This document shows positions 2,870 through 42,636 of a stretch of 64,000 nucleotides of DNA, piece by piece; the first letter of the stretch is position 1; each line of letters opens with the position of its first letter. The position numbers and the translations under genes are program-made. The stretch is from Bifidobacterium mongoliense DSM 21395 (GTDB taxonomy: Bacteria; Actinomycetota; Actinomycetes; Actinomycetales; Bifidobacteriaceae): contig NZ_JGZE01000013.1 in NCBI RefSeq assembly GCF_000741285.1, forward strand, positions 1 to 64,000, read 5' to 3'. A model generated the notes under the pieces. That model did not search any database. It was not told the DNA's origin and saw nothing but the letters and a program-made list of their open reading frames with translations.

Positions 2870-2912
2870 CACAAACAACAAAACACCCCGACCCTCCAGA
2901 GGAGAGCCGGGG
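2870..2912 (-). terminator. Rho-independent terminator
   Basis: Read on the minus strand, a CCCCG/CGGGG stem with an inner CTCC/GGAG part (2886-2912) is followed by a T-rich run (GTGTTTTGTTGTTTG). It lies directly after the stop of the 2928-3965 gene and would end the accessory module transcript. Confidence 0.65.
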
Positions 2913-2927
2913 CGAATCGTGGTCATG

Positions 2928-3965
2928 TCAAGTGTTTTCGCTGCCATGCAGGGCGAAATCCACAGTCCCTTGAATCCCGTTGCCGAGGTCGATGTCTATT
3001 GCCTGCAATGACCGAGACGTGGTTGCTATATCACCTAGCGTATTTAGTTTTTCATATTTCAGGATGTCAAGCCGGTACAAGCGCTCTGATTGAATTGAGT
3101 ATTCGGCAACTTGTTGAATAAGATCTGGATCGCTAACCGAAATCGGCAATGCACGGGTATCAGCAAGGCTCCGTTTCACATACAATATGCCTTCGCTGCG
3201 CCGATACCCATCCAAATACCCACGTATGATTTCTTTATCAGGTTTTTCGGGAACCGAGCCGAGCTCGTGCTCAAGCCTTAGAGCACCCAACTGAGTAAAT
3301 TGAATCCGTAGCGGTTGTTGCCTTCGTTGGAGTATCTCCCCGTGAATCGTCCAGTCCGTTTTGCGAACTTCTTTGGTCATGGATGAGATGTTCTTCCTAG
3401 CTTTGATAGTCAATTGCGCGAGCTGTGCGGAAATTGGCGACTCTCTATCATCAAGCTCTTCCGAAGAGGCCGCCGTCAGCAACGCACCGACGGTTTTCAG
3501 GGCCGCGCTTTCAGCGGTCTCAGGAATCTCGATGTCGTTCTCTGCATAGTGACTATGCAAATCACCAGCTCGGACATCATCTGGCGCTTGAATCGTTATT
3601 TCCAAGGATCCCGGAGCTGTCCCTGTGATCAAAAGTTGCGGTGCCCTACGTTCTGCCCCGAGTTTCTGTTTGGCTACCTCATTAACCGCTGATACCAACT
3701 TGCCAAGGAACTTCGAAACGGAGAGAGCGTTTGCAGAGTGCTCTCGTGTTTTAGCCTCAACGATATGCACAATGGCTGTTGCCTGTGCGGGAGCTGTTTC
3801 ACTGCGAAATATCGCGTTCAGCTTCTCGTTACCCTCTGTGGAGAGTTCCAGTGAGTTGAGAAGCCCCTCACGGATAATCGGGTCTTCCTGCATCAGAGCG
3901 TTTCTTATTGCATCACGAAAGGACATTGCTAAGTCTTGTGAAAGTGCTGTATCCATGGTGGTCAT
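2928..3965 (-). CDS. Unknown protein, partner of the adjacent nucleotidyltransferase
   Basis: 345 aa, no family recognised. The N-terminal third is helical and polar. The middle has a beta-rich APQLLITGTAPGSLEITI segment. There is no signal peptide and no clear membrane segment, so it is probably cytoplasmic. The gene starts with a 4-nt ATGA overlap with the nucleotidyltransferase gene upstream and ends at a terminator, so the two form one closed transcription unit. Base composition is visibly more AT-rich than the phage structural genes. The pair stands beside attL, a common place for cargo genes expressed from the prophage. A role in phage exclusion or toxin-antitoxin action is inference only. 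Confidence 0.6.
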   Translation of the reverse strand: MTTMDTALSQDLAMSFRDAIRNALMQEDPIIREGLLNSLELSTEGNEKLNAIFRSETAPAQATAIVHIVEAKTREHSANALSVSKFLGKLVSAVNEVAKQKLGAERRAPQLLITGTAPGSLEITIQAPDDVRAGDLHSHYAENDIEIPETAESAALKTVGALLTAASSEELDDRESPISAQLAQLTIKARKNISSMTKEVRKTDWTIHGEILQRRQQPLRIQFTQLGALRLEHELGSVPEKPDKEIIRGYLDGYRRSEGILYVKRSLADTRALPISVSDPDLIQQVAEYSIQSERLYRLDILKYEKLNTLGDIATTSRSLQAIDIDLGNGIQGTVDFALHGSENT

Positions 3966-4486
3966 CTCACCTCCAAAAACCCTTTCTGGCTAAGTGATGT
4001 ACTTAGATAGTGCTTAGACTCGTTAATTCCACTCCACTGACGATCCCAATATTTCAGGTTTACATCGTCTTTATCGATATTGTCGCACGGTACTATGAAA
4101 GAGTCTATGAGTCCACCGTACGGCTGAACCCTCTCCTTGGATCCATCCCGTTTCTGTCGAAAAATCGTCTTCAGTGCCGAAAGCTTCGACGGATTGCTAA
4201 TATTTGCTTGTTTGTATGCCTGAAACGATACAAGTACCACTACGTCTATATCCTCGGGATCAGGTTTGGTGGTCACGAAGCTACCATTCACCCAGAAGGT
4301 CGAGTCTCCCAGCATTTTTTTGATTTCCGTGCGCCAGCGGAGGAAGTTATTCCACAGAATTTCTCTCCGTTGCGTAAAAAGCAGTAAATCCTCTATATCT
4401 TTATCACTGGCCAGATAGGGATTAAACGGGCCACGATAGGGGAGCACTTGCTTACTCCGGAAGACAGCTTCGTCACAAATTGGCAT
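3962..4486 (-). CDS. Nucleotidyltransferase-fold protein (DUF6932-like)
   Basis: 174 aa. WVNGSFVTTKPDPEDIDVVV contains the nucleotidyltransferase signature, GS followed by a D-x-D pair, and GGLIDSFIV could supply the third acidic residue. Such enzymes move a nucleotide to a protein, RNA or small molecule; in toxin-antitoxin and defence systems they often occur as the first gene of a two-gene unit. That layout is seen here, with a 4-nt overlap to a 345-aa unknown partner. An AT-rich TATATAAT promoter-like stretch lies upstream at about 4508-4525. The substrate cannot be told from sequence. Confidence 0.7.
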   Translation of the reverse strand: MPICDEAVFRSKQVLPYRGPFNPYLASDKDIEDLLLFTQRREILWNNFLRWRTEIKKMLGDSTFWVNGSFVTTKPDPEDIDVVVLVSFQAYKQANISNPSKLSALKTIFRQKRDGSKERVQPYGGLIDSFIVPCDNIDKDDVNLKYWDRQWSGINESKHYLSTSLSQKGFLEVR

Positions 4487-4635
4487 ACTTCAGAACAATA
4501 CACGCTAATTATATATATCCGAATTGTCCACCGCCTCCCGTGGGGGACTGAGGCGCGAATGTAGTACGTGCATGCAGAAGTTGCTTGTTCGCATTAAATG
4601 TGCAGTCCGCTGACAGATGCAAGAAACGCGAAAAA

Positions 4636-4665
4636 CGCCCCCACCTTCCGAAGGAGATGAGGGCG
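4636..4665 (-). terminator. Rho-independent terminator after the lysis genes
   Basis: On the minus strand a CGCCC/GGGCG stem with an inner CCTT/AAGG stem is followed by GTTTTTCGCGTTTC. It lies downstream of the holin and separates the late operon from the accessory module. The rest of 4487-4717 holds no gene that I can support. Confidence 0.7.
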
Positions 4666-4717
4666 TTACTTGCGTTTTCGCTGTTAATCGCATTAACGAC
4701 GCTTGGCAACAGCGATG

Positions 4718-5057
4718 TTATTTGCTGTTGTATTTGATCGAGCTCACGCCGAGGAAGCCTCCGAGGAGCACTCCCACGGCGGTGACGGTATAGGCGACCT
4801 GCTGGGCATAGGGGATGCCCCAGATGCCGCCAAGTCCGACGATGAACGTGGCGATGGAGGGCAGGCCGATGATTGCCCCCCACTTCAAAATGTCGTAGGT
4901 GCGATTGGAAATCAGACCGCTTGGCAATTCGACGTCGATGTTCTCCTTCGCCGGGGGAAGAACGGAGTTGATGACAACTGTAGGCGTCGTTGGTGGAATA
5001 TTGCCCACGCCGTCCATGATGCTGGGTTACGGATGGAGTCGTAGTGGTGTCTGTCAT
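4718..5057 (-). CDS. Holin (Dp-1 type); start region possibly frameshifted
   Basis: The clear frame is 99 aa from ATG 5017. It has LISNRTYDILKWGAIIGLP and two hydrophobic helices (about 45-68 and 72-92), with the basic C-terminus YNSK, as in Dp-1-type holins that pierce the membrane to release or activate endolysin. ATG 5017 has no ribosome binding site. A better start, ATG 5057 with AAGGAAGG upstream, begins MTDTTTTPSVTQ but is in another frame (40 nt offset). A single-base loss between 5018 and 5050 would explain both facts. Either the holin is made from a weak start or the gene is broken. Confidence 0.7.
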
Positions 5058-5068
5058 ATAAACCTTCC

Positions 5069-6289
5069 TTAGTAGTTGAGTATTTCGCCGGGGTAGATGA
5101 GATTGGGGTTGCCGGACCGGTAGCCGCGGATGCTCGACTGGCTGACGCCGAGCCTGCGGGCTATGGAGCCGAGCGTCTCGCCGGAGCGCACGACATAACT
5201 GCGCCCCGATGTGCCACTGGTCTTCAGCCGTTGCCCGGCATAGATGGTGTAGGGGCTGCGCAGACCGTTGAGCGAGGCGATGGTCCGCCAATTGTTGGGC
5301 CACACCTTGCTCAGGTAGTCGCCCGACCTGACCACGTAGTAGCCGGACGCGGTCGATGCCCCGCCGGAGAGCCGCTGGTTGACGATAGCCATGACCTCGG
5401 CATACCGACTGCCGAGCAGCTTCTCGCGCTGCGGCTGATTACCATACAATCCCTGAATCACAGCGGTCGCCAGGGCGTTCGCGTCACCGGTTGGTGTCGT
5501 GGTGGTCTGCACAGGCTTGACCGTGGTGGTCGGCGTCTCGACGGCTGGCTTGGTCACCGTGTCGATGGGGGCGTTCGCATACTTCGCCCACGTCACCGCA
5601 TCACCGTAGAACCAGTCGACGTCCACCGCGCTGCCGACTCCGGCGACGGAGCCAGAGGAGCTGTACTGCCATGCGGCGGCGAAGCCCCACGGCGATACGG
5701 AGTAGGGAACGGAACCGGGGTCGCGCAGACGGTCACCCGCGTACCCCTTGGGGTATCCGGCCACCCACAGGCCATAGTCGGACGAGGATACCGGCGTCCA
5801 GTCTGCGATATGGATGGTGCTGGCGCTCATGTAGATCAACGGCTTCGTGCCCCATGCTGCAGCAACGGTGTCAAGCCATGTCTTGGCCCACGCGACATTG
5901 GCTTTGAGATTGCCTGCTGGCTCCCAGTCGAGCACGGGGATGACGCCCGCGTTGATGAGCCCCTGGCTGCGTGCGACGTTGAGGAAGTTGTCCGCTTCGG
6001 CCTGTGGGGATAGTCCTGCTACGTCCGCGAAATGGTAGGCTCCCAATCGCAGTCCAGCGTTGCGCGATGCGGTGAGCTGGCAGCCCGCGTACGGGTTGGT
6101 GTAGCCAGTGCCTTCTGAGAGTTTGATGAAGCTGAACCTCGCACCGGCATTGACCGCTGCGTGCGCGTTGTAGCAACCCTGATAGCTGGCCGCGTCGAAA
6201 CCGACATCCGCGTAGGCAGTCCCCGCGACCAGCATCATCACAGCTGTAAGCAAGGCCATCAGACCATAAAAACGTTTACGTTTTCGCAT
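5069..6289 (-). CDS. Secreted endolysin: GH25 muramidase with CW_7 and two LysM domains
   Basis: 406 aa. A basic start plus hydrophobic core ending AGTAYA (about residue 27) forms a Sec signal peptide. A GH25 lysozyme domain follows (about 28-240) with Asp32 in FDAASYQG and the catalytic pair Asp121/Glu123 in VLDWEP. After a Thr/Pro linker (240-267) come a CW_7 wall-binding segment (about 268-310) and two LysM repeats (about 316-358 and 363-405) that bind peptidoglycan. Known role: cuts the glycan strands of the host wall at the end of the lytic cycle. The signal peptide means export does not need the holin lesion. It is transcribed after the XhlA-like gene, past a hairpin terminator. Confidence 0.92.
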   Translation of the reverse strand: MRKRKRFYGLMALLTAVMMLVAGTAYADVGFDAASYQGCYNAHAAVNAGARFSFIKLSEGTGYTNPYAGCQLTASRNAGLRLGAYHFADVAGLSPQAEADNFLNVARSQGLINAGVIPVLDWEPAGNLKANVAWAKTWLDTVAAAWGTKPLIYMSASTIHIADWTPVSSSDYGLWVAGYPKGYAGDRLRDPGSVPYSVSPWGFAAAWQYSSSGSVAGVGSAVDVDWFYGDAVTWAKYANAPIDTVTKPAVETPTTTVKPVQTTTTPTGDANALATAVIQGLYGNQPQREKLLGSRYAEVMAIVNQRLSGGASTASGYYVVRSGDYLSKVWPNNWRTIASLNGLRSPYTIYAGQRLKTSGTSGRSYVVRSGETLGSIARRLGVSQSSIRGYRSGNPNLIYPGEILNY

Positions 6290-6308
6290 TATCCTCCTTA
6301 TGGATATG

Positions 6309-6332
6309 AAAAAGCCACCCGTACGGGTGGCT
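6309..6332 (-). terminator. Intrinsic terminator/attenuator between XhlA-like and endolysin genes
   Basis: The perfect palindrome AGCCACCCGTACGGGTGGCT is followed on the minus strand by TTTTT. It would reduce read-through from the late tail operon into the endolysin gene, or give a separate short transcript. Confidence 0.75.
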
Positions 6333-6353
6333 GGAAAGAATTGTTTGACGCGG

Positions 6354-6662
6354 CTAGTGCATGATGAGTGGGATCGCCCACTCCAGCAAGCCGACTATCA
6401 GGCCGACGATGGTGCCGGTGGCCCCCACCGCCTTCCACATCATGCCCTTGATGTCATCGACACTGGCCTTGAGATCGGCGTGATCGGAGTCGGCGGATGC
6501 TTTCAGGTCGTCGATACGTCGGTTCACGTGCTTGATGTCGCTTTCATGCACTTCCTGCGATTCCAGCCCGTCGAGCCGTTTTTCGACCGAATCGAAACGT
6601 TGCGTCATTAGCTTCTCCAAATCCACGATCTGCGCGGAGACCGTATCGATGTTATCGGCCAT
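6354..6662 (-). CDS. XhlA-like holin-associated protein (coiled coil plus one membrane helix)
   Basis: 102 aa. The first 70 residues form a heptad-rich coiled coil (LEKLMTQRFDSVEKRLDGL). A single hydrophobic helix follows near the C-terminus (VGATGTIVGLIVGLLEWAIP). This is the layout of XhlA/hemolysin-type proteins, which work with holins in lysis. It stands between the inversion cassette and the endolysin. ATG 6662 has AAAGCAGGTCCC upstream. Confidence 0.65.
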   Translation of the reverse strand: MADNIDTVSAQIVDLEKLMTQRFDSVEKRLDGLESQEVHESDIKHVNRRIDDLKASADSDHADLKASVDDIKGMMWKAVGATGTIVGLIVGLLEWAIPLIMH

Positions 6663-6724
6663 GGGACCTGCTTTCTATTACCGTCACCCAGATAACGGCT
6701 GATTACGGACGATTATTGACAGAG

Positions 6725-6777
6725 GGAAACCCACACAGATGATTCGCATGCATCCGCCGTGCGGCGTGTGGGTTTCC
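6725..6777. repeat. Recombination-site-like inverted repeats A and B before the recombinase gene
   Basis: GGAAACCCACAC (6725-6736) and its exact reverse complement GTGTGGGTTTCC (6766-6777) face each other across 29 bases. Both match the crossover-like site inside the receptor-binding protein gene (8459-8477). Copy B on the plus strand shares GCGGCG-x-GTGGGTTTCC with that site on the minus strand, with one mismatch. Confidence 0.7.
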
Positions 6778-6791
6778 AGGGAGGAATACGC

Positions 6792-7655
6792 ATGTTGTTT
6801 GGTGAGTTTGTTGAAAGCATCTACTGGCATGACCGCGCCACGTTACGGGAGTGCACCCTTGTGGGGTACCGGTCCGCGTGGGAACGGCATATTGCCCCCC
6901 GGTGGGAGGCATGGGACCTGTCCGCCGCGTTTGACGTGCGTGAGGTGAGTGCCTGGCTACACGATTTCACGCAGGCTGGCGCGGCACGCAAGGCGTGGGC
7001 CGTGATGCGTGGCATGCTCAGGCGCGCCGTCGTGCTCGGGCACGCCGATTCAGCCATGACCGCGATTGAGCCGGAACTGCCCCATGCCGCCAGATACATG
7101 GCCATCACGCTTGACGCCGGACAGATAAGACGACTACTCAAGGGGTTTTACGGGCACGAGCTGGAGGCATGGCTGATCTGCTCGGTATGTCTGGGGTTAC
7201 GCAGGGAGGAGGCATGCGGGCTGGAGTGGGAGGATATCGACTACAGGAGTGGTATCGTCCACATTCGTCGTGGCGCGCAATGGGTTGCCGGACATGTGGT
7301 CGTCGACCGGCCGAAGACCGATCTGTCGCTGCGGGACGTGGTGCTGCCCAGGTTCGCGCTCGTGCGTTTACGGCAACTGCGCGGCACGGGGCAGGTGACG
7401 GGAGACCTCAACCCGCAGCAGGTCGCCCGACACTACCGCTCATGGTGCGAACGGCAGGGGCTGCCTTACGTGCCCGCGAAGAATCTGCGTCACTCCTGGG
7501 CCACGACCGCGCTGCAGGCGAAAGTCGATATCAGCGTCGTCGCCCGACAGCTCGGGCACTCGGACATCGCCACCACCGCCAGATACTACCTACGACCCGA
7601 CATCGCCATCCTGCGGGAGGCGCAACGCGACTGGGAGCATCTCATCGTCAAATAG
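6792..7655 (+). CDS. Tyrosine recombinase of the tail-fibre inversion cassette (Rin-type)
   Basis: 287 aa from ATG 6792; the GGGAGG at 6779-6784 decides this start. A core-binding domain (1-100) precedes the catalytic domain: Arg137 in CLGLRREEACGL, Lys175 in DRPKTD, Arg233 in NLRHSW, His256 in QLGHSD and Tyr265 in TTARYY. The first His of the usual H-x-x-R box is Lys230. The gene runs against its neighbours, lies between lysis genes and the receptor-binding protein, and is flanked by short inverted sites. Bifidobacterial prophages are known to carry a tyrosine-recombinase shufflon (Rin) that inverts receptor-binding protein ends, and this gene fits that role. It is distinct from the integrase at 40322. 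Confidence 0.85.
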   Translation: MLFGEFVESIYWHDRATLRECTLVGYRSAWERHIAPRWEAWDLSAAFDVREVSAWLHDFTQAGAARKAWAVMRGMLRRAVVLGHADSAMTAIEPELPHAARYMAITLDAGQIRRLLKGFYGHELEAWLICSVCLGLRREEACGLEWEDIDYRSGIVHIRRGAQWVAGHVVVDRPKTDLSLRDVVLPRFALVRLRQLRGTGQVTGDLNPQQVARHYRSWCERQGLPYVPAKNLRHSWATTALQAKVDISVVARQLGHSDIATTARYYLRPDIAILREAQRDWEHLIVK

Positions 7656-7657
7656 CA

Positions 7658-7669
7658 TTCCCAAACCCA
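7658..7669. repeat. Recombination-site-like repeat C (silent cassette end)
   Basis: TTCCCAAACCCA, the exact reverse complement of 8460-8471 inside the receptor-binding protein gene. The reading frame through both copies is the same (TCC CAA ACC CA-), so crossing over here keeps translation in frame. Confidence 0.8.
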
Positions 7670-8003
7670 GCCGAGTTGGATTGTGTGCAATGCGGCTATT
7701 GGATATTACAAACCAACGGCATCAGGGTCAATACAGGCATTATCGGTACGCAAACAACAGGGAATTGTGGAACTCATGGGGCGAATTACAGTCGGTGGAA
7801 CTGTGCAGATGAACAGCGACATGGGTGAGATGATCCCGAAAGCGTACCGTCCAACCGTGGTCACGATGATTCAATCGGATCAGACCAGTTATGGGCATAC
7901 CGGTCCAGCATTCTATGTTAGGCCTGACGGTCACATCGTCTGGGGCCCCCAACAGGACAATGCTACTGATGCCATATTCCATGGCATGTGGGTAGGCGCA
8001 TAA
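7659..8003 (+). CDS. Silent alternative C-terminus of the receptor-binding protein
   Basis: An open frame without its own ribosome binding site runs from repeat C to TAA at 8001-8003. It reads SQTQPSWIVCNAAIGYYKPT and ends with PAFYVRPDGHIVWGPQQDN-type beta-rich sequence. It lies tail to tail with the expressed C-terminus (stop at 8024-8026), 20 bp apart. Inversion between repeats C and D would join it in frame after GGAWVS of the fibre. It would then replace about 145 residues by about 113. It is a storage cassette, not a free gene. Confidence 0.8.
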   Translation, partial: SQTQPSWIVCNAAIGYYKPTASGSIQALSVRKQQGIVELMGRITVGGTVQMNSDMGEMIPKAYRPTVVTMIQSDQTSYGHTGPAFYVRPDGHIVWGPQQDNATDAIFHGMWVGA

Positions 8004-8023
8004 CCACTGCAGAAGGATATCGG

Positions 8024-9664
8024 TCAGTCGCCTATTCGGGTAATGGAGAGCAAGCAGCCGTTGGGCTGTATGACGGCCCCAGCAACGTCGCACGCGACGA
8101 TGAGATACACTCGCTGCCCTGCAGTGAGCGCGATAGGTACAGCAGGGTACACCGCCGTAATCCACGCACCGTCGAGACCAGGTCCGCCACCAACCTCCTT
8201 ACTCATGTACCGGTTGGACGAGGAGTAACCGTCCACGCCGATTGCCACATTGGCGTGATGAGATCCCCCCGACACTCCAGACACTTGTACCGCACCGCTC
8301 ACGAGATATGTTCCTGCATGGGCGACTTGTATGTAATTTGATCCTCGCGTGTACGCAGCTGAATCACCGGTCATGGTGTCCATCCGCACGCTTGTAGTGC
8401 CGTTTACCGTGCTTGAGCTTGATGTGGGCACTGCCACACACACGGCATCGTCCCATGTGTGGGTTTGGGAAACCCACGCGCCGCCACCATCGAATGCGTA
8501 CTCGATCCCACCGACGAAGGCCTTCGTCCCCTGACCACCGACGACTTGAGGTGCAGTGGGGAGAGATGCTAGATCATGTGCGAACCATGTACCGTTCACG
8601 TTTATCGCGTTGCTCGCGTCAAGAAGCATTTTCCCGCGAGCGGTTATCGACACATCGTACACTTTCGGATCCGGCTGATGATTCACGCTATCGACCAGGG
8701 TAGCGAATTGCATGAACTGACCAGACTGCCCGGTGTAGAGCCCGGTGTACACATAACCACTCTTGTCCGTGTCGTCAATGAATGTCAGACTCGAAAGTTC
8801 CGACCCGTCGTTGAGCAGTGCGACCTTCCCCGTATCACCAGACTGCGAGATACTGATACGTTTGCCCGATAGCGCGGTCTGCATACCACCGACCAGACTA
8901 GCCTTCCCGGTTGCCGCTTCGATCTGGAACGTGGTGTTGCCCGCGGCATCGTATGCTCTGATGCCCTTGGTGTCCATGACAACGCGAGCGCCAGACGATG
9001 CGGTTTGGAATTCCCCGGATGTGATGATCGCGGCCGCGAGTGATCCCACGTCAATGTCGTCGGCCTTGATTTTTCTGACGAGGAGCTTGTTCAGCAGGGC
9101 TTCGCTGGCTGTCACTTTGTCAGCCGTGACCGCGCCATTCGCCAGGCTGATGGTGCCTATGCTACCGGCGACGAGGATTTGCTGGGCCATGAGCACGTAG
9201 TTGGCGTACGCCGTCCCGTTCCACACTTTGATGCCGGTCACATTCTTGTTCGTGTCCAACTGGAACCACAGGTCACCCGCTACCAGACCGGTATGGGATG
9301 GTTCGCTCGCACTACTGAATATCTTGTTCTTCCCGTCAGCCGTGGTTTGCGCGGCGGTAGCGGCGGACTGAGCTTGCTTGGCCTTGTTGTATGCGGCCTT
9401 CGCTGCCTCGTACGAGCTGGACAGGCTCACGGGCGTATAGTCGAACATGCCATCCGAGAACACCGTCACGTCAACCGTGTATAGGCTGTTGGTGGCACCC
9501 TCCGTGTAGGTCGGTTCAGTAGTCACCCACGGGGATGGTGCCGGATACACGGTCGGTGCGGTAGGGGCCGACGCCGTACTAGCCTTCAGCTGGAAGTAGT
9601 GCGCCGTCGAAGCGACATCAGTAACCAGTGCCAGCGTCACATCATCGCGTGCTATTACCGTCAT
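8024..9664 (-). CDS. Tail receptor-binding protein / fibre with invertible C-terminus
   Basis: 546 aa. The N-terminal part (1-110) attaches to the tail tip. A helical AKAAYNKAKQAQSAATAAQT section (about 85-110) and gp58-like fibre repeats with ANGAVTADKVTASEALL follow (about 165-260). The C-terminal beta domain after about residue 400 is the host-binding part. The crossover site sits at the codons for AWVSQTH. It begins with an ATGA overlap with the upstream tail gene. Known role of the class: recognition of the cell-surface receptor. The last 145 residues can be exchanged by the cassette at 7659-8003, which should change receptor specificity. Confidence 0.85.
   Translation of the reverse strand: MTVIARDDVTLALVTDVASTAHYFQLKASTASAPTAPTVYPAPSPWVTTEPTYTEGATNSLYTVDVTVFSDGMFDYTPVSLSSSYEAAKAAYNKAKQAQSAATAAQTTADGKNKIFSSASEPSHTGLVAGDLWFQLDTNKNVTGIKVWNGTAYANYVLMAQQILVAGSIGTISLANGAVTADKVTASEALLNKLLVRKIKADDIDVGSLAAAIITSGEFQTASSGARVVMDTKGIRAYDAAGNTTFQIEAATGKASLVGGMQTALSGKRISISQSGDTGKVALLNDGSELSSLTFIDDTDKSGYVYTGLYTGQSGQFMQFATLVDSVNHQPDPKVYDVSITARGKMLLDASNAINVNGTWFAHDLASLPTAPQVVGGQGTKAFVGGIEYAFDGGGAWVSQTHTWDDAVCVAVPTSSSSTVNGTTSVRMDTMTGDSAAYTRGSNYIQVAHAGTYLVSGAVQVSGVSGGSHHANVAIGVDGYSSSNRYMSKEVGGGPGLDGAWITAVYPAVPIALTAGQRVYLIVACDVAGAVIQPNGCLLSITRIGD
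8459..8477. repeat. Recombination-site-like repeat D inside the receptor-binding gene
   Basis: Near-palindrome with 8-bp arms GTGGGTTT and AAACCCAC around GGG. The right and left halves match repeats A/B and C respectively. Short inverted arms around a small spacer are typical of tyrosine-recombinase crossover sites. Confidence 0.7.
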
Positions 9665-10704
9665 GCCGTCTCCAATTGTGCAGTGTACGACGCCTTCCCA
9701 CTCACGTCGCCAGCGTCAATCGTGTACGTGACACCGGAACCAACTGACGTACTGCCACCATCCTGATACCATTTGACGGTTCCCAGCGCGGTGAGTGCAG
9801 TACCCGTCACCTCGACACCAGCCTTATACACATGGGCCGTGAGCACGGTTTCAATACCCGTATTACGGAAAATAAAACCGTTGGATGAGGTGACCGTCAA
9901 CGTAATGGCATCGGCACCATCCGACCCATTCGTACCCGCGTAGGCAACAGAGTAGGCGGTAGTACTCGTCGAATCCGTGTAGGAGGTAACCGTCTTAGTC
10001 CACAAATACTGGCCGGCCGGAACACTCGGCACCGAAGTACCCCATGTGCCAGTCGGCGGCGTCGTACCCGACGTACCCACCTGGAAGGTGACCGCTGGCG
10101 TGCCACTAATGCCCTTACCATTGTTGCCAGCATCACCCTTGGCCCCCATCATGCCAACGGAGTAGGCGGTGGTCGTCGACGAATCCGTATACGTGGTGAC
10201 GGTACGCGTCCACAAATACTGGCTAGCCGAAACCGCTGGGATAGTCGCAGACCAAGTGCCCGTCGGCGCGGTGGTGCCACTCGCAGACGCCTGATACGTG
10301 ACAGCAGGCGTTCCACTAATCCCCTTACCACTGTTGCCGGTCGTGCCGGTGAATGCGATACCGAAACTGAAAATCTTATGGACCACGATATCGTCACCAA
10401 CATGCACGGGAATGTCCACATTGCCCGGAGCAGTAACCGATGAGGAAACCGCGATAGTCAGCGTGGGGGCAGTCGCATTCGAGTCTTTCGTAACCGTGAC
10501 GCCGCTGGGTGACACGACTTCCGACAGGGTTACTGAAGCAGGTATCTGAGTGGATCCTTGCAGGGCAATCACCTGCGTAGTGGTCGACCCGGCTTTCGCA
10601 GCGGTAGTCGTCCCCTGAAACGTGTATACCTCCGAGGAGAGAATGACGCTATACCCGTCGGTCAGATCGACAACAGTGGTTTGTGCGGATGCAATAACAG
10701 CCAT
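9661..10704 (-). CDS. Minor tail protein with two tandem collagen-like/beta repeats
   Basis: 347 aa from ATG 10704 (GAAAGAAG upstream). The N-terminal third is a beta-rich Thr/Val/Ser domain. Two copies of a module of about 68 aa follow, each starting GKGISGTPAVT and carrying YLWT-x-TVT-x-YTDS and TTAYSV, separated by GAKGDAGNN. The C-terminal domain is Ig-like (GTVKWYQDGGST). It lies between tail-tip proteins and the receptor-binding protein and is probably part of the baseplate or a fibre connector. The function is inferred from position. Confidence 0.7.
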   Translation of the reverse strand: MAVIASAQTTVVDLTDGYSVILSSEVYTFQGTTTAAKAGSTTTQVIALQGSTQIPASVTLSEVVSPSGVTVTKDSNATAPTLTIAVSSSVTAPGNVDIPVHVGDDIVVHKIFSFGIAFTGTTGNSGKGISGTPAVTYQASASGTTAPTGTWSATIPAVSASQYLWTRTVTTYTDSSTTTAYSVGMMGAKGDAGNNGKGISGTPAVTFQVGTSGTTPPTGTWGTSVPSVPAGQYLWTKTVTSYTDSTSTTAYSVAYAGTNGSDGADAITLTVTSSNGFIFRNTGIETVLTAHVYKAGVEVTGTALTALGTVKWYQDGGSTSVGSGVTYTIDAGDVSGKASYTAQLETA

Positions 10705-10732
10705 AATGACTTCTTTCACTTACTGACATGAT

Positions 10733-11767
10733 TTACGACATGACGTCCGCAGTGAACGTCACAGAAACGTCCACATTGTCGGGAGACAACGTGAGCGAGA
10801 ACCCATCGTCGGTGACCATGGGATCAGAATTGCTAATAATGACCGGCGTGCGTGCCGATCCGGTGAGCGCGGTCCATTGGATATACGCGCTGGATCCCAG
10901 CACGGCATGCAGCTCGTCCAACGTCGTCACCCGTCTCGCGCCGCACAACACTGTGAGCCGTAACGTGGTATCAATGTCATTGTTATGAAACGCGATCCCA
11001 CGCGTAGCATGAATATCGATCAGTATGGCACTGTTACCAGTGGTCCTGACCGGAGCCGAGGTTGTTGTGGTTTTATCCCCGTGCGTCGTCACGGTGCGCA
11101 TCCACGTGTACTGGTTTGCCAACGGTCTCGGGGTATCAGTACTCCAACCGGTATCGGGCGGATCAGTGTCACTGCCTGACACCGCATACTGGGGTACCAC
11201 ATTCTGAGCAGCCTGACCGGCCTGATTCAACGCGGTTTGCGCATCCTGCTGCGCCCTTTCCACGGTCTCCGGGTCTACAGCGGAGGCAACCGTCACCTGT
11301 ACCGGGTCGGAAGGCGTGGATGCGTTTGGTGTACTTTTCCCGGTGTCGTCATGCGCATCGTCATACGCAGTGGCGGTGATTATCACCACATCATCGGGTG
11401 TCAGGCTGGCTACGGTCAACGTGCCCGCCTTAGCTAACGAGCCGAGATCGATAGTCCTACCATCATCCGCCAGAGTGAATTGAACGTGCGAGAAGTCAGT
11501 TGGAATACCGCCATCTAACGTGCCATCCCACGTCACCCAGACCGCACCATTACGTGACGTGGCCGTGATGCCGATTGGTCTGCCGGGAGCGGTTGTGTCC
11601 CCCACCCACTGGGTCACGCCAGTGGGTGTGCCGCCACCGATAATGGTCTTGGAGCCGTCACCATTGCGATACACGTCGCCCACGCTGGGACGGGTAAGGT
11701 TCTGACCGGCGGAATCAACTGCCGCTGACAGAGCGCCGATCAAATCCGTCAGGTCAACGTGTTTCAT
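10733..11767 (-). CDS. Minor tail protein with fibronectin-like domain
   Basis: 344 aa from ATG 11767 (GGAAGAG upstream); a GTG two codons earlier is possible. A short N-terminal helix is followed by a fibronectin type III-like segment (GDTTAPGRPIGITATSRNG, about 55-165), a helix (AQQDAQTALNQAGQAAQN) and a beta domain. The PPDTGWSTDTPRPLANQYTW stretch resembles the YLWT modules of the next gene, so the two may share ancestry. Position after the Gp37-like gene points to the tail tip. Confidence 0.65.
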   Translation of the reverse strand: MKHVDLTDLIGALSAAVDSAGQNLTRPSVGDVYRNGDGSKTIIGGGTPTGVTQWVGDTTAPGRPIGITATSRNGAVWVTWDGTLDGGIPTDFSHVQFTLADDGRTIDLGSLAKAGTLTVASLTPDDVVIITATAYDDAHDDTGKSTPNASTPSDPVQVTVASAVDPETVERAQQDAQTALNQAGQAAQNVVPQYAVSGSDTDPPDTGWSTDTPRPLANQYTWMRTVTTHGDKTTTTSAPVRTTGNSAILIDIHATRGIAFHNNDIDTTLRLTVLCGARRVTTLDELHAVLGSSAYIQWTALTGSARTPVIISNSDPMVTDDGFSLTLSPDNVDVSVTFTADVMS

Positions 11768-11769
11768 GT

Positions 11770-12960
11770 TCACTCTTCCAAGATGTCGTAGCTGGTGGCG
11801 CTGACCACGTCCATGAGGGCCGTGGCGATGGGATTGCCTTTCTCGCCCGAAAGTCTCATGAAGCGCATGCGGTATGTGCGGGCGCGAGCGTTGTTCATGC
11901 TGGGTAGTCCAGCGATCGTGATGTCCGCGAGATCTCCCGGGCAGATCCTTGACACGGGGGTTACGCCGTGGACGGCGAGTCGTATCGTCAACTGGCCCTG
12001 CACGTCCTGCGAGACTTTGAGTTCGTTGTCCGCTAGGTTCTGGAGTTGCCCTTGGTCCTCAATGCTGGTGTCGGACACGGTCTTCTCGCGCATGAGTCTG
12101 TCGGATGGAATGCGTGGGGATTGCGCGACGGCGACGAGGGTCTGCTCGTCGCTGCCGCCGCCGGTCGCGTACACACGGTCGGCGAGGTTGTCGGCGTTAC
12201 GTTGGAAGCTGCACGAAAGCACGTCACCTCCCGGTGCGCCTTTCTTCCAGTCGAACGTCCAGATCCTCGGTTGCGTGAGTTGTGGGTGGCCCCAGGTGTA
12301 GTTCAGTCTGATCGTCCGGTCGTCGACCATGACCGGGCGGATGTCGATGTCCGGCCCGAGATTCGCGAGATTGTCGAGCAAATGTCCTGCGGTGATGTTT
12401 GCGAGGTTGAACCCGCGAACGTTGCGTTCATGGTCGTTGGTGTTTCCCGGCCTGTCGTTGTCAAATGAGATCGGGGGGAGCGCGTGGCCCTTCTGGGTTA
12501 CCGCGATGAGTTCGCGTTTGCCGATGGAGCCGAGGTCCACTCCGTTGATGGTGAGCACGGCATGAGCGATGGCTGTAGGGTCTCCTCGCATCTGATCTTG
12601 GACTGCTTGCTCGGGTATCACGTGTAGACGGTCGAGCATTGCGCGTATCGAGTTGAGTGTGATTTGGATGGTGTCGCCATCGTCGACGGTGTCGGATATC
12701 TCGGAGAGCACCTGCGGCACCCCGTCAAGACTGTAGAGCACCCCACGGTACCCAGGCATGAACAGTTGTTCGTAGTTCGTTTCGTCGTCGAACGCGTTCC
12801 ATGGCAGAGAGAGTGAGGTGATTCCGTCCTCGTTCATGTTCTGTCGCCGCGCGTTGATCTGGGAGTCCCGCAGTTGTCGGTCCCAGGAGAAATCCACGTC
12901 GGGCAGTTCCCGAAGTAGTCTGCCGGTCGTGAGGTCGACCAGGTCGAGACGTTCGCTCAT
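11770..12960 (-). CDS. Tail protein, Gp37/Siphovirus ReqiPepy6-like (tail hub/protease-type)
   Basis: 396 aa from ATG 12960, which overlaps the previous stop (ATGA) and has a purine-rich GGGGGTAG leader. RLDLVDLTTGRLLRELPDVDF at the start and the central NLANITAGHLLDNLANLG block match the large hub proteins of actinobacterial siphophages. These form the tail tip ring below the distal tail protein. No catalytic motif can be named with confidence. Confidence 0.75.
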   Translation of the reverse strand: MSERLDLVDLTTGRLLRELPDVDFSWDRQLRDSQINARRQNMNEDGITSLSLPWNAFDDETNYEQLFMPGYRGVLYSLDGVPQVLSEISDTVDDGDTIQITLNSIRAMLDRLHVIPEQAVQDQMRGDPTAIAHAVLTINGVDLGSIGKRELIAVTQKGHALPPISFDNDRPGNTNDHERNVRGFNLANITAGHLLDNLANLGPDIDIRPVMVDDRTIRLNYTWGHPQLTQPRIWTFDWKKGAPGGDVLSCSFQRNADNLADRVYATGGGSDEQTLVAVAQSPRIPSDRLMREKTVSDTSIEDQGQLQNLADNELKVSQDVQGQLTIRLAVHGVTPVSRICPGDLADITIAGLPSMNNARARTYRMRFMRLSGEKGNPIATALMDVVSATSYDILEE

Positions 12961-13847
12961 GCTGCTACCCCCCCATCTATGACTTCCACGTAGCGTAGCC
13001 CGCGCCATTGGAACTGCTGACGGTTGGTGTTCGGACTAATCTGCACGTCAATGTTGTGGGCCCTGCCACCGGATAGCGTTGTGCGGAACGACACCGGCTG
13101 GCGTGCCCATACCGAGAACACCGGGCATTCGTCGAGTCCATCGCTCACCGGCGTTCCATCGACCATGAGACGTGCATAGAAGCTTGATGGGGTATCTCCC
13201 TCGATGCTCGCGCGACTCACGAAGTTGACCGTCACGAGACGATCTGTTGGCAGATACGCGGTGGTGCAAGGGGCCTGTGGCCACCACTGTCCAGGGGTCC
13301 AGTTCTGTTTCTGCGACCCACTGTTCGACCCGTATCCCAGTTCCCCTAGGAGTGAGCCGTAGGGTATCGAGTATTGTATGTCTCCGTACGGGGTTGTCTC
13401 GCTGGTCGTGGTCATGCCCGCGGGCACCGTCTGCGACGCGAGTTTCACCGAGATCCCGGCCGGCGGTGCTGGCTCGGATGGTATTGAGGATGGGAGGCCC
13501 TGCACGACCATGAGCACCACGTCGTTGTCCGTGTCTCCGGTTCCCGGGTTGTGCTGCACCGCGTAGATCGAGTCGATGCGTGGCAGTGCGCTGTCCCCGG
13601 CCTTGGTGAGCACGGACGCCCCGTCCGTAATGGGGAATATCACGTTCCCGTCCGCAGCGGACGCCGATCCGACCGCTACGTTCGCCGGGTCATTCCCACG
13701 GCTCACCCGGTAAGACAGGCCGCTCGATGATGTTACGATGGCGCACCCACGCAGTACTCCTATCGAATACTCGGATGCGGTGATCAGACGATCATCCAGA
13801 GCGGTACGCCCCTTTCCCCCTGCACGGGGGATGCCCACACCTGTCAT
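12957..13847 (-). CDS. Minor tail protein, unknown
   Basis: 296 aa from ATG 13847; TGGAGGTC upstream fixes the start and leaves only 14 nt of overlap with the distal tail gene. It starts with a glycine-rich basic region, then carries ITASEYSIGVLRGCAIVTS, a pattern frequent in actinophage minor tail proteins, and a beta-rich C-terminal carbohydrate-binding-like domain (FYARLMVDGTPVSD). Likely part of the tail tip, possibly binding wall glycans. Confidence 0.65.
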   Translation of the reverse strand: MTGVGIPRAGGKGRTALDDRLITASEYSIGVLRGCAIVTSSSGLSYRVSRGNDPANVAVGSASAADGNVIFPITDGASVLTKAGDSALPRIDSIYAVQHNPGTGDTDNDVVLMVVQGLPSSIPSEPAPPAGISVKLASQTVPAGMTTTSETTPYGDIQYSIPYGSLLGELGYGSNSGSQKQNWTPGQWWPQAPCTTAYLPTDRLVTVNFVSRASIEGDTPSSFYARLMVDGTPVSDGLDECPVFSVWARQPVSFRTTLSGGRAHNIDVQISPNTNRQQFQWRGLRYVEVIDGGVAA

Positions 13848-40202: not shown

Positions 40203-40321
40203 ATTAATTGACCCCGCCAATCTTTAGGGGGATGCGCGGGGCCTGATGAAACGAGAATCAATGAGACTCGATCGCTTCGCCGTCCATCATAGCAGCGAAG
40301 CAGATGGACAGGAGCAACGGC

Positions 40322-41500
40322 ATGGCCAGCATACTCTCATATGAGACAAGCAAAGGAGTCCGGTACACGGTCCGTTACCGCAAACCCGACCATTCCCTTG
40401 CCAGAAAAAGCGGGTTTAGACGCAAGAGAGACGCCGAGGCATGGGTGGCGGAGCACGTGACCACTGCCATCCCCAAGGGACTCTACGTGGACCCGCGCCG
40501 TGGACGCATCACCATCGGCGAGCTATACATGACCTGGTACACGACGCATGAGCCGCTGTGGAAGCCATCATGGTCGCACAGGGTCTCCATCGTGTGGAAC
40601 ACACATGTGAAAACAGAATGGGAGCAGGTGCCGGTATCCGACGTTGATCCAGACGGGTTAAGACGATGGGTGGCTAGACTGTCATCCAAGCGCAGCGCCA
40701 GCACGACCCTCAAGGCGGTCAACATCATGCGTGGGATCCTCGACGACGCGGTCACTGACCGACGCATACCCTCGAACCCGCTGAACGGAGTTGAAGTCCC
40801 TAAACGTCACAGGAGAAAAATCAGGAGGATTTATCTTACAGCCTCACAGGTCATCGCATTCGCGGACGAATGTGCCAACGCTCAATCCATGGGCCGCGAG
40901 CGCAGGGCGTTGGTGTTGTTGTTGGGGTTTTGTGGGTTGCGTTGGGGTGAGGCTGCGGCGTTGCGTGTAGGGGATGTTGATTTTCGTGCGCATCGTGTGC
41001 GGGTTGCGTCGAGTTTGGTGCGTGTGGGTTCAGGGTATGTGCAGGGGGCTCCGAAGTCGTGGGAGACGCGGTCGGTTCCGTTGCCGCGTGTGGTGGAGTC
41101 GGCGTTGCGTGAGATCTGTGCCGGGCGGGGGAGTGTGGATCGATTGTTTTCTGATGCGTCGGGTGCGCCGATTCGTCCGCAGTCGGTGGGGGACAGGAGT
41201 AATAATCGTACGTGGTGGGTTTCGGCGTTGAAACGGTTGGGATACGCGTGGGATGATATGCCATCACCGCATGATCTAAGGCATACTGCGGCGAGTATCG
41301 CTGTGCATGCCGGGGCGAACGTCAAGGCACTGCAGCGGATGCTTGGTCATGCGAGCGCATCGATGACGTTGGACGTGTATGCAGACCTTTTTGATTCGGA
41401 CCTTGATGATGTGGCCAGGATGGTGGATGCGACAGTGGATGTGGAGACTCACACCGATCGGAGTTTTTCTGTTGGTGTGCCTGCGGAAAATTGTGCCTGA
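40322..41500 (+). CDS. int: Prophage integrase (tyrosine recombinase)
   Basis: 392 aa from ATG 40322 (CAGGAG upstream). N-terminal arm-binding domain: GVRYTVRYRKPDHSLARKSG (AP2-like). Core-binding domain about 65-160. Catalytic residues Arg207 (FCGLRWGEA), Lys245 (GAPKSWETR), His317-x-x-Arg320 (SPHDLRHTAA), His343 (MLGHAS) and Tyr353 (DVYADLF). The stop codon lies inside the first right-arm repeat, next to attR in tRNA-Val. It inserts and, with the excisionase-like protein, removes the prophage. The part coding residues 195-310 is strikingly G+T-rich, which suggests recombination with a gene of other origin. Confidence 0.95.
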   Translation: MASILSYETSKGVRYTVRYRKPDHSLARKSGFRRKRDAEAWVAEHVTTAIPKGLYVDPRRGRITIGELYMTWYTTHEPLWKPSWSHRVSIVWNTHVKTEWEQVPVSDVDPDGLRRWVARLSSKRSASTTLKAVNIMRGILDDAVTDRRIPSNPLNGVEVPKRHRRKIRRIYLTASQVIAFADECANAQSMGRERRALVLLLGFCGLRWGEAAALRVGDVDFRAHRVRVASSLVRVGSGYVQGAPKSWETRSVPLPRVVESALREICAGRGSVDRLFSDASGAPIRPQSVGDRSNNRTWWVSALKRLGYAWDDMPSPHDLRHTAASIAVHAGANVKALQRMLGHASASMTLDVYADLFDSDLDDVARMVDATVDVETHTDRSFSVGVPAENCA

Positions 41501-41513
41501 TTTGTGCCTGATT
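41492..41513 (+). repeat. Putative integrase arm-type sites, right arm
   Basis: Tandem TGTGCCTGATT pair, identical to 2497-2518, overlapping the integrase stop codon and 60 bp from the attR core. Confidence 0.65.
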
Positions 41514-41573
41514 ATGTGTTTCGTGGGTTCACGGAGACAGTGGAAGTGTTGGAATCATTGGGCTGAGGGGTTT

Positions 41574-41597
41574 GTGGGCGATGAGGGGCTCGAACCC
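41574..41597. repeat. attR core
   Basis: Exact 24-bp match to attL; it forms the 3' end of the intact tRNA-Val. Confidence 0.9.
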
Positions 41598-41648
41598 CCG
41601 ACATCCACCGTGTAAAGGTGGCGCTCTAGCCAACTGAGCTAATCGCCC
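41575..41648 (-). tRNA. tRNA-Val (anticodon TAC)
   Basis: Minus-strand reading starts GGGCGATTAGCTCAGTTGG and has anticodon stem CCACC / GGTGG around TTTACAC, giving TAC. The T arm GGGGGTTCGAGCCCC and acceptor ATCGCCC are complete; CCA is not encoded. The prophage uses its 3' end as attB, and integration leaves the tRNA whole. Confidence 0.95.
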
Positions 41649-41919
41649 GCACCGCATCAGTGTAGCCCATCGCAGGACCGCGACGCACGCAGTGGCGCCG
41701 ATCGGCGAGGGGAGGTGTACGGGTTTGGGCGAGAATCGGCATGCATATGTCCGTGGGGCGCAGGAGGGGACGGAACAGGGCAAAGTGTGGGCGTCGGCAG
41801 GAACGAAACAGGGCCGCGCCGGTCTTCACCCACGGAACGCGCATCGCTGCGTGGGCCCCAGCGTCTGAGTAATCGCGTACAGTGAGGGTCGATATATTGT
41901 GTTGAGGAGGTCAGGTTCC

Positions 41920-42636
41920 ATGGCTCATAAACCCGAAGACGAGCGGGATGCGTTCGGCATAGCACGTGTCGGCAAGCGCAAGTGGGGATACGACGTCGCT
42001 CAGGTGGACGCTTTTCTCGAACGGGCGCATTCCCTGTACGAGGGTGAGGGTGCGCAACTGACATCCAAGGACATCCAGGGTGCGTCTTTCGATATGCGGC
42101 GTGGTGGCTATGAATACAAGCAGGTCGATGCCGCGCTTGACCGCCTGGAACGGGCCGTGGTCGACAAAAAGACCGCATGGGAGATCTCGCAGGGCGGTCG
42201 GGTCGCTTCGCGAGCCAAGATCGAGGCGTTGTTCGCCCAGGTGGCCGAGCATGCGCAGCGATCCATGGGCGAACGGTTCGCACCCGGCAAAGCCAAGATG
42301 CCGTCGTATGACCGTGCTCAGGTCGACGCCGCCGTCGACCGCATCGTGGCCCATGTGTCGTCCGAGCTGCAAGCCATGGACACCGCATATGAGGAGCCTC
42401 AGCATCATGACACCGATGACCAGGGCGTGAGTGCCGCCTCTGTGTCGCACGAGGTCTTCACTCAACGCAAGGGCAAGAAGGGTTACGACGAGCGCCAGGT
42501 CGATTACTACCTCAGCGTATGTACGCATCTGCTTACGAGGCTCGAATCCTTCGCGCGGGTCTCGGGATACGACGAGTCCGCCGTTTCGTCTGCGTTGGCA
42601 CGGGCCACAGGTGCCGGTGCTGGTGGCGGCGCGTGA
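41920..42636 (+). CDS. DivIVA-like domain repeat protein
   Basis: 238 aa from ATG 41920 (GAGGAGG upstream). Three DivIVA-type units appear: RKWGYDVAQVDAFLERAHSL, RRGGYEYKQVDAALDRLERA and KKGYDERQVDYYLSVCTHLL, with a fourth-like SYDRAQVDAAVDRIVAHVSS. Host DivIVA relatives organise septum or pole growth. The start of the next gene overlaps its stop (GTGA). Confidence 0.8.
   Translation: MAHKPEDERDAFGIARVGKRKWGYDVAQVDAFLERAHSLYEGEGAQLTSKDIQGASFDMRRGGYEYKQVDAALDRLERAVVDKKTAWEISQGGRVASRAKIEALFAQVAEHAQRSMGERFAPGKAKMPSYDRAQVDAAVDRIVAHVSSELQAMDTAYEEPQHHDTDDQGVSAASVSHEVFTQRKGKKGYDERQVDYYLSVCTHLLTRLESFARVSGYDESAVSSALARATGAGAGGGA

Follow-up and report, generated by a model that had tools for sequence, protein, structure and literature searches.

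The locus described here raises the question of whether a tyrosine recombinase in a prophage of Bifidobacterium mongoliense DSM 21395 exchanges the C-terminus of the neighbouring fibre, and what role the repeats in front of the recombinase gene may play. It lies in a stretch of 64,000 nucleotides (contig NZ_JGZE01000013.1, positions 1 to 64,000; hereafter the window), in which the recombinase gene rin (6792-7655, plus strand) is followed by a start-less silent end (7659-8003, plus strand) that faces the convergent fibre gene (8024-9664, minus strand). This arrangement was reported in an earlier note on the DNA; its coordinates for the recombinase, the silent end and the fibre gene were found to be correct, the expressed end being 8024-8470 when counted from the site, and the observation itself is real and confirmed. 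The locus is very probably a two-state inversion switch of the Rin type, by which the tips of the fibre would be exchanged. A Rin shufflon is indeed known from bifidobacterial prophages, as the same note had stated: that of the dnaJ2 prophages of B. breve and B. longum was published in 2018, as described in the main text of PMC6109161.

Rin, its sites and the two fibre tips

The rin gene was shown to be an open frame of 287 amino acids with similarity to Pfam Phage_integrase (1.7e-17) and with the invariant residues of its clade in the alignment. In a maximum-likelihood tree, from which L023 and L105 were left out (stops in frame), 28 rin rows including that of the window fell on one side of a branch with support 96/57, and Eggerthella-type recombinases adjoined this clade. 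Relatives with 45-63% identity were found in eight other genomes of the genus (9/112 including its own, E <= 1e-20), in two named phages (PMBT6 and ctl617) and at 37 loci of IMG/VR, a number that includes the window. The enzyme belongs to the tyrosine family and is separate from the prophage integrase: the closest other match to Rin in its own genome showed 30% identity and lies within the integrase frame. Judged by length and alignment, Rin is predicted to be a recombinase without an arm-binding domain.

Two rix sites were found. One, TTCCCAAACCCA (7658-7669, plus strand), belongs to the silent end and has the TAG stop codon of rin immediately 5' of it. The other lies within the fibre gene (8460-8477, minus strand) and reads GTGGGTTT-CCC-AAACCCA, a near-complete palindrome that contains the 12-mer TTCCCAAACCCA at 8460-8471. 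The claim that these copies are exact reverse complements read in one frame was borne out; both (T-TCC-CAA-ACC-CA) translate to SQT. Of the three occurrences of the 12-mer in the 2.17-Mb genome, two are at this locus. When up to two mismatches were allowed, 6 matches were found in the window compared to 3.8 expected, and only these two were exact. Tyrosine recombinases require a short overlap, and the TTCCCAA that is identical between the two sites fits this. As in Rin systems, the sites are short, asymmetric and inverted, and one of them stands in the fibre gene. Neither a set of Rv genes nor a further rix beyond the fibre gene was found, the prophage containing only two exact sites. Since L022 and L025 also have two sites and a recombinase of this family, the layout was treated as a variant and not as a defining feature.

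The sites beside rin in relatives follow the pattern TTNNN[AT]A[AT]CCC, the triplet being specific to the locus (CCG, CGC, CAC, CCC or ACC). The published rix, TTCCCTAACCC, was found exactly in at least three relatives (L058, L061, and L062), and the window site TTCCCAAACCC differs from this 11-mer by one base (A for T). For a survey of the region upstream of rin, 54 loci were grouped into 30 clusters with one representative each; 21 of these have a recognisable fibre site, and the remaining 9 were left out of the arm count. The fibre-gene sites carry a full left arm, with at least 9/10 positions identical to GTGTGGG[AT]TT in 18 of the 21 clusters; the arm was off-motif in L023 and L024 (6/10) and partial in L030 (8). 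As a control, 210 10-mers with a terminal TT were taken from the same genes, and 1 of them reached 9/10. Silent sites on the plus strand mostly scored 7 or less against the same motif (46/50).

The fibre gene encodes 546 amino acids. Its constant part (Rc; 8471-9664, minus strand) comprises 398 codons, and from the site the expressed C-terminus (Rv; 8024-8470, minus strand) comprises 148 codons and the silent alternative (Rv; 7659-8003, plus strand) 114. Both ends are open and in frame with Rc, as expected of alternative ends of the Rin type. In a comparison with 170 rix-delimited frames, the silent end gave matches to Rv ends from further Rin loci, the best with E 1.4e-4, and it retains the invariant residues of that family in the alignment. 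A search of its profile against the PDB gave exclusively lactococcal TP901-1/p2 receptor-binding proteins or chimeras (11/11 matches, E 0.0027-0.11), and the same was seen for all 24 structure matches with E <= 0.001 to its model (mean predicted local distance difference test score, pLDDT, 72.8). The silent end is a remote relative of the ends at other Rin loci, and it is predicted to have a TP901-1-like head fold.

The comparison of the two C-termini with other fibres, which the earlier note had called for, thus gave remote relatives for the silent end; for the expressed end no relation to any of the 170 frames was found. A single-sequence model of the expressed end (pLDDT 63.8, predicted template modelling score 0.64, modest confidence) resembles TNF-type jelly rolls, with 4-1BB ligand as first match (template modelling score about 0.5) and carbohydrate-binding modules, ExsF and a cyanophage fibre domain also among the matches. 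Within 189 genomes of the family the expressed end was present in its own genome only, and the only close relative of either end in IMG/VR was the record identical to the window.

Compared to the other Rin loci fetched, Rc of the window showed no match below E 0.7; judged against the Rc of these loci, it is not related to the published type of about 168 residues. A long Rc was also found in L023 and L024, and the long, unrelated Rc is treated as a variant feature. Residues 110-275 of Rc showed 59% identity to the fibre of the B. asteroides phage BigBern1, the annotation of which, as far as it was searched, names no recombinase among the neighbours of the fibre gene (all 'hypothetical protein'). 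As Rc is without counterpart in Rin loci and partly BigBern1-like, the Rin module seems to be joined to a different fibre scaffold here.

Besides, rearrangement at rix-type sites was found among relatives. Pairwise comparisons within clusters of 90% identity (62 pairs) showed inverted pieces in 16 near-identical pairs, and 54 of the 58 ends of these pieces lie within 20 bp of a rix-type site, whereas only 7-16% of positions in the compared loci lie so close. L053 and L054 are rearranged at the sites and otherwise 100% identical. L044 and L046, both on one 83.7-kb contig, differ by a 645-bp piece that is inverted and moved, as two inversions would produce. The two near-identical loci on this contig (IMGVR_UViG_2877182016_000001) lie about 42 kb apart in different arrangements, which may represent either a tandem lysogen or the two states joined in one assembly. 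Several arrangements were also reported in reads of another strain (main text of PMC6109161).

The proposed function of the cassette, exchange of the fibre C-terminus by a tyrosine recombinase, is thus supported by the position of Rin inside its clade, by the rix-type sites and rearrangements of relatives, and by the silent end related to Rv and TP901-1. Rin would recombine the fibre-gene site with the inverted site that follows the rin stop codon, as suggested for this strain by rearrangements at equivalent sites in relatives. A piece of roughly 0.8 kb would flip, by which the fibre stem of 398 residues would be kept and the tip would alternate between the TNF-like form expressed at present and the TP901-1-like head that is silent. 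Such a change of tip would probably alter the host surface that is bound.

The inverted half-site pair upstream of rin

Two Rin-type half-sites precede rin, the left at 6725-6736 (minus strand) and the right at 6766-6777 (plus strand). They are exact inverted copies of GTGTGGGTTTCC, the only two in the genome, and their sequence corresponds to the outer left arm of the site in the fibre gene (16/17 between 6761-6777 and 8468-8484). In the window, the full crossover triplet CCC follows the left copy and only CC the right one, the opposite arm AAACCC being found at neither. They had been described as two partial copies of the recombination site, which holds in so far as they share an arm with the fibre site; as recombination sites they are better not regarded, being a conserved inverted half-site pair. 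This pair, GTGTGGG[AT]TT in inverted orientation, was found 5' of rin in all 30 clusters, 8-26 nt before the start codon used, with a CCC-to-GGG spacing of 36-38 nt (10, 18, and 2 clusters, respectively). L062 was left out of one comparison of this region (62 nt upstream). L097 is the same place as L108, and the pair, missed with the misplaced frame of L097, is present when the place is read as L108.

The pair score was at least 20 in the clusters and did not exceed 16.5 in any of 180 control windows within rin, although the consensus was derived from the same loci. In a consensus-free test, no more than 5 of 100 shuffles reached the best inverted repeat of the locus in 27/30 clusters, the exceptions being L023, L064, and L105 (91, 12, and 9 shuffles, respectively). 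IMG/VR contains 23 exact forms of the pair, of which 21 immediately precede a rin. The motif was absent from the best repeat of each of 19 more remote tyrosine recombinases of the phylum (L067-L085; several starts or frames doubtful), and by eye the pair was absent from L067, L068, and L101.

From the sequence comparisons we infer that the upstream pair may be a control element bound by Rin. More specifically, it is put forward tentatively, at somewhat short of an even chance, as a candidate second element of bifidobacterial Rin switches, Rin-bound and non-recombining, with the two half-sites flanking an inner hairpin, that would repress rin and/or build a complex favouring inversion over deletion. 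The half-sites would then take no part in recombination themselves, and binding of Rin would regulate its own gene and/or steer recombination elsewhere.

Some observations speak against this proposal. In the window, the left half-site keeps the full crossover triplet. The two exact pair forms without rin (L121 and L125) resemble ordinary terminator-type hairpins. In L125 the pair sequence lies inside a longer perfect hairpin (3274-3321), on a contig with lysis-type and tail-type frames and no rin near; this place possibly represents either a lost rin or a terminator. Further, the stretch between the half-sites (6737-6765 in the window) often contains an off-centre inner inverted repeat in relatives, with compensatory changes that are also compatible with an RNA structure: 131 of 240 cells form Watson-Crick pairs, compared to a shuffle mean of 99 (maximum 118) and to 51-77 on sliding.

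The pair could accordingly be read as a transcription terminator or an mRNA leader hairpin that is no binding site of Rin, which we consider possible but rather unlikely. RNA folding of the window pair (z -1.95 on the plus strand, -3.07 on the minus strand) favours such a hairpin, as do the inner stem and the two matches without rin. However, the arm sequence hardly varies and is the same as that in the fibre gene, and the spacing is rigid throughout the clusters. Wobble pairs showed no strand preference (outer 4 versus 5, inner 22 versus 18), and a terminator scan of 6500-8600, covering loops of 3-8, found none. RNAalifold, applied to 20 of the 30 clusters (L030 row shortened), predicted the outer stem only. 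In an Rfam search of six loci the upstream element was unmatched, the only matches being tRNA and tmRNA elsewhere; in L103 a tmRNA gene (2912-3310) lies about 3.4 kb from the rin locus. A promoter-like sequence, TTGACA-16-GATGAT (6716-6743, plus strand), contains the left half-site in its spacer; it is a consensus match only, and the number of such matches in the region (2 compared to 1.1 expected) is at chance level.

States of the locus and its setting in the prophage

The inversion switch proposed above implies two states, and the evidence for fewer and for more was considered. The cassette of this prophage might be a relic in which inversion no longer takes place, the silent end being permanently off. 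Several observations weigh against a working switch. The two window sites share 12 bp and nothing more, the outer left arm of the silent site being different. In the HxxR box, as we take it to be, the first His is replaced by Lys in the window's Rin, at a position that is variable in relatives too. Others also favour the frozen reading. No inverted form of the prophage was found: the genome and the IMG/VR record L007 (100% match, perhaps the same assembly) have one orientation, and no relative with the same prophage in the opposite orientation was found among the genomes of the genus and the IMG/VR matches. The locus has one silent end only; this end was found in no other of the 112 genomes of the genus and had no match among 50,697 phage records. 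In addition, rin frames are broken by stops or a frame break in L023/L059, L025, and L105, which shows that the recombinase decays in some prophages. Against a frozen cassette stand the open frame of rin with the invariant residues of its clade, the two ends that are open and in frame, and the invariant residues of the silent end, which a relic would tend to lose. A frozen switch in this prophage is regarded as improbable.

That the two copies before rin are extra crossover sites giving other arrangements, as had been suggested earlier, is hardly credible despite the arm in common with the fibre site and the CCC kept by the left copy of the window, since the second rix arm is absent from both copies in 30/30 clusters. 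Of the 16 naturally rearranged pairs, 13 are continuous through this region and 3 were undecided. The triplet of the respective locus comes directly after the left copy in 2/25 clusters (window and L108) and after the right copy in 0/25, and the ends of inverted pieces cluster at rix instead. Among all compared pairs, 44 of 62 are colinear through the upstream element.

The prophage lies inside the window. The record L007 is part of a 37,014-bp contig, of which the fetched 9,166 bp correspond to 4487-13652 of the window (100% identity, same orientation). The integrase frame (40304-41500) lies at the other prophage end, with a tRNA-Val gene (41574-41648) directly behind it, and the region of this tRNA gene is likely the attachment region; a comparison of 3900-4800 with 40300-42500 showed no common word of 12 bases or more. 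The tail gene adjoining the fibre gene (9661-10719, minus strand) contains two imperfect direct repeats (9945-10128 and 10155-10338) of about 187 bp with 74% identity, which code for GKGISGTPAVT-type modules.

Comparison with known systems

According to the main text of PMC6109161, the Rin systems of B. breve and B. longum share with the window an armless tyrosine recombinase adjoining the fibre gene, asymmetric short sites (published TTCCCTAACCC, window TTCCCAAACCC) and a constant fibre part with exchangeable, TP901-1-like ends. Compared to this account, the window differs in having two sites and one silent end, where the published systems have multiple Rv genes and another site beyond the fibre gene, in the length of Rc (398 codons versus 168 residues) and in a site that is symmetric about its triplet; its expressed tip, in addition, is unrelated to the other Rv frames found. 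New relative to published Rin are thus the two sites, the one silent tip, the different scaffold and the tips of different predicted fold. Another difference is the upstream half-site pair: the main text of PMC6109161 contains no mention of a palindrome, operator, autoregulation, promoter, hairpin or element 'upstream of rin', and the pair was found undescribed in the literature searched, which covered few subscription papers.

The clade 1 Rin of Eggerthella lenta, in the part of the account drawn on here (PMC8778435), is likewise a tyrosine recombinase with an Rc/Rv layout, the Eggerthella repeat being ttccgtat. L068 (rix TTCCGTATCCC) and L101, which because of their repeat appear to be Eggerthella-type, fall outside but beside the Rin clade and, unlike the window, have no upstream pair by eye. 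L068/L099 and L101 come from another family of the phylum; in L099 the TTCCGTATCCC sites occur on both strands, as described for Eggerthella. As in Gin, Cin and Min, where it is general knowledge and noted in the main text of PMC6109161 that inversion swaps the C-termini of tail fibres, the fibre tip would be exchanged by inversion. However, those enzymes are serine recombinases and that of the window is a tyrosine recombinase, which places the locus outside the serine invertases.

A precedent for the autorepression proposed at the upstream pair is found, by analogy only, in KplE1: as outlined in PMC2951348, the phage tyrosine recombinase IntS acts as repressor of its own gene, the promoter of which overlaps with the recombination region. 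Unlike Rin, the KplE1 enzyme is an integrase with attL and no invertase.

By its anatomy, the Rin module of B. mongoliense would act on a fibre scaffold that is unmatched in the other loci and exchange tips of two different predicted folds. The module thus appears to be capable of transfer from one type of fibre to another. How a recombinase without an arm-binding domain is controlled was raised as a question by the authors of the 2018 paper (PMC6109161, section 8), and the conserved half-site pair is a concrete candidate for such control. The putative upstream control element is the part of the locus most worth testing: if true, an element bound by Rin in front of its own gene would answer the question of directionality that was left open in the main text of that paper.

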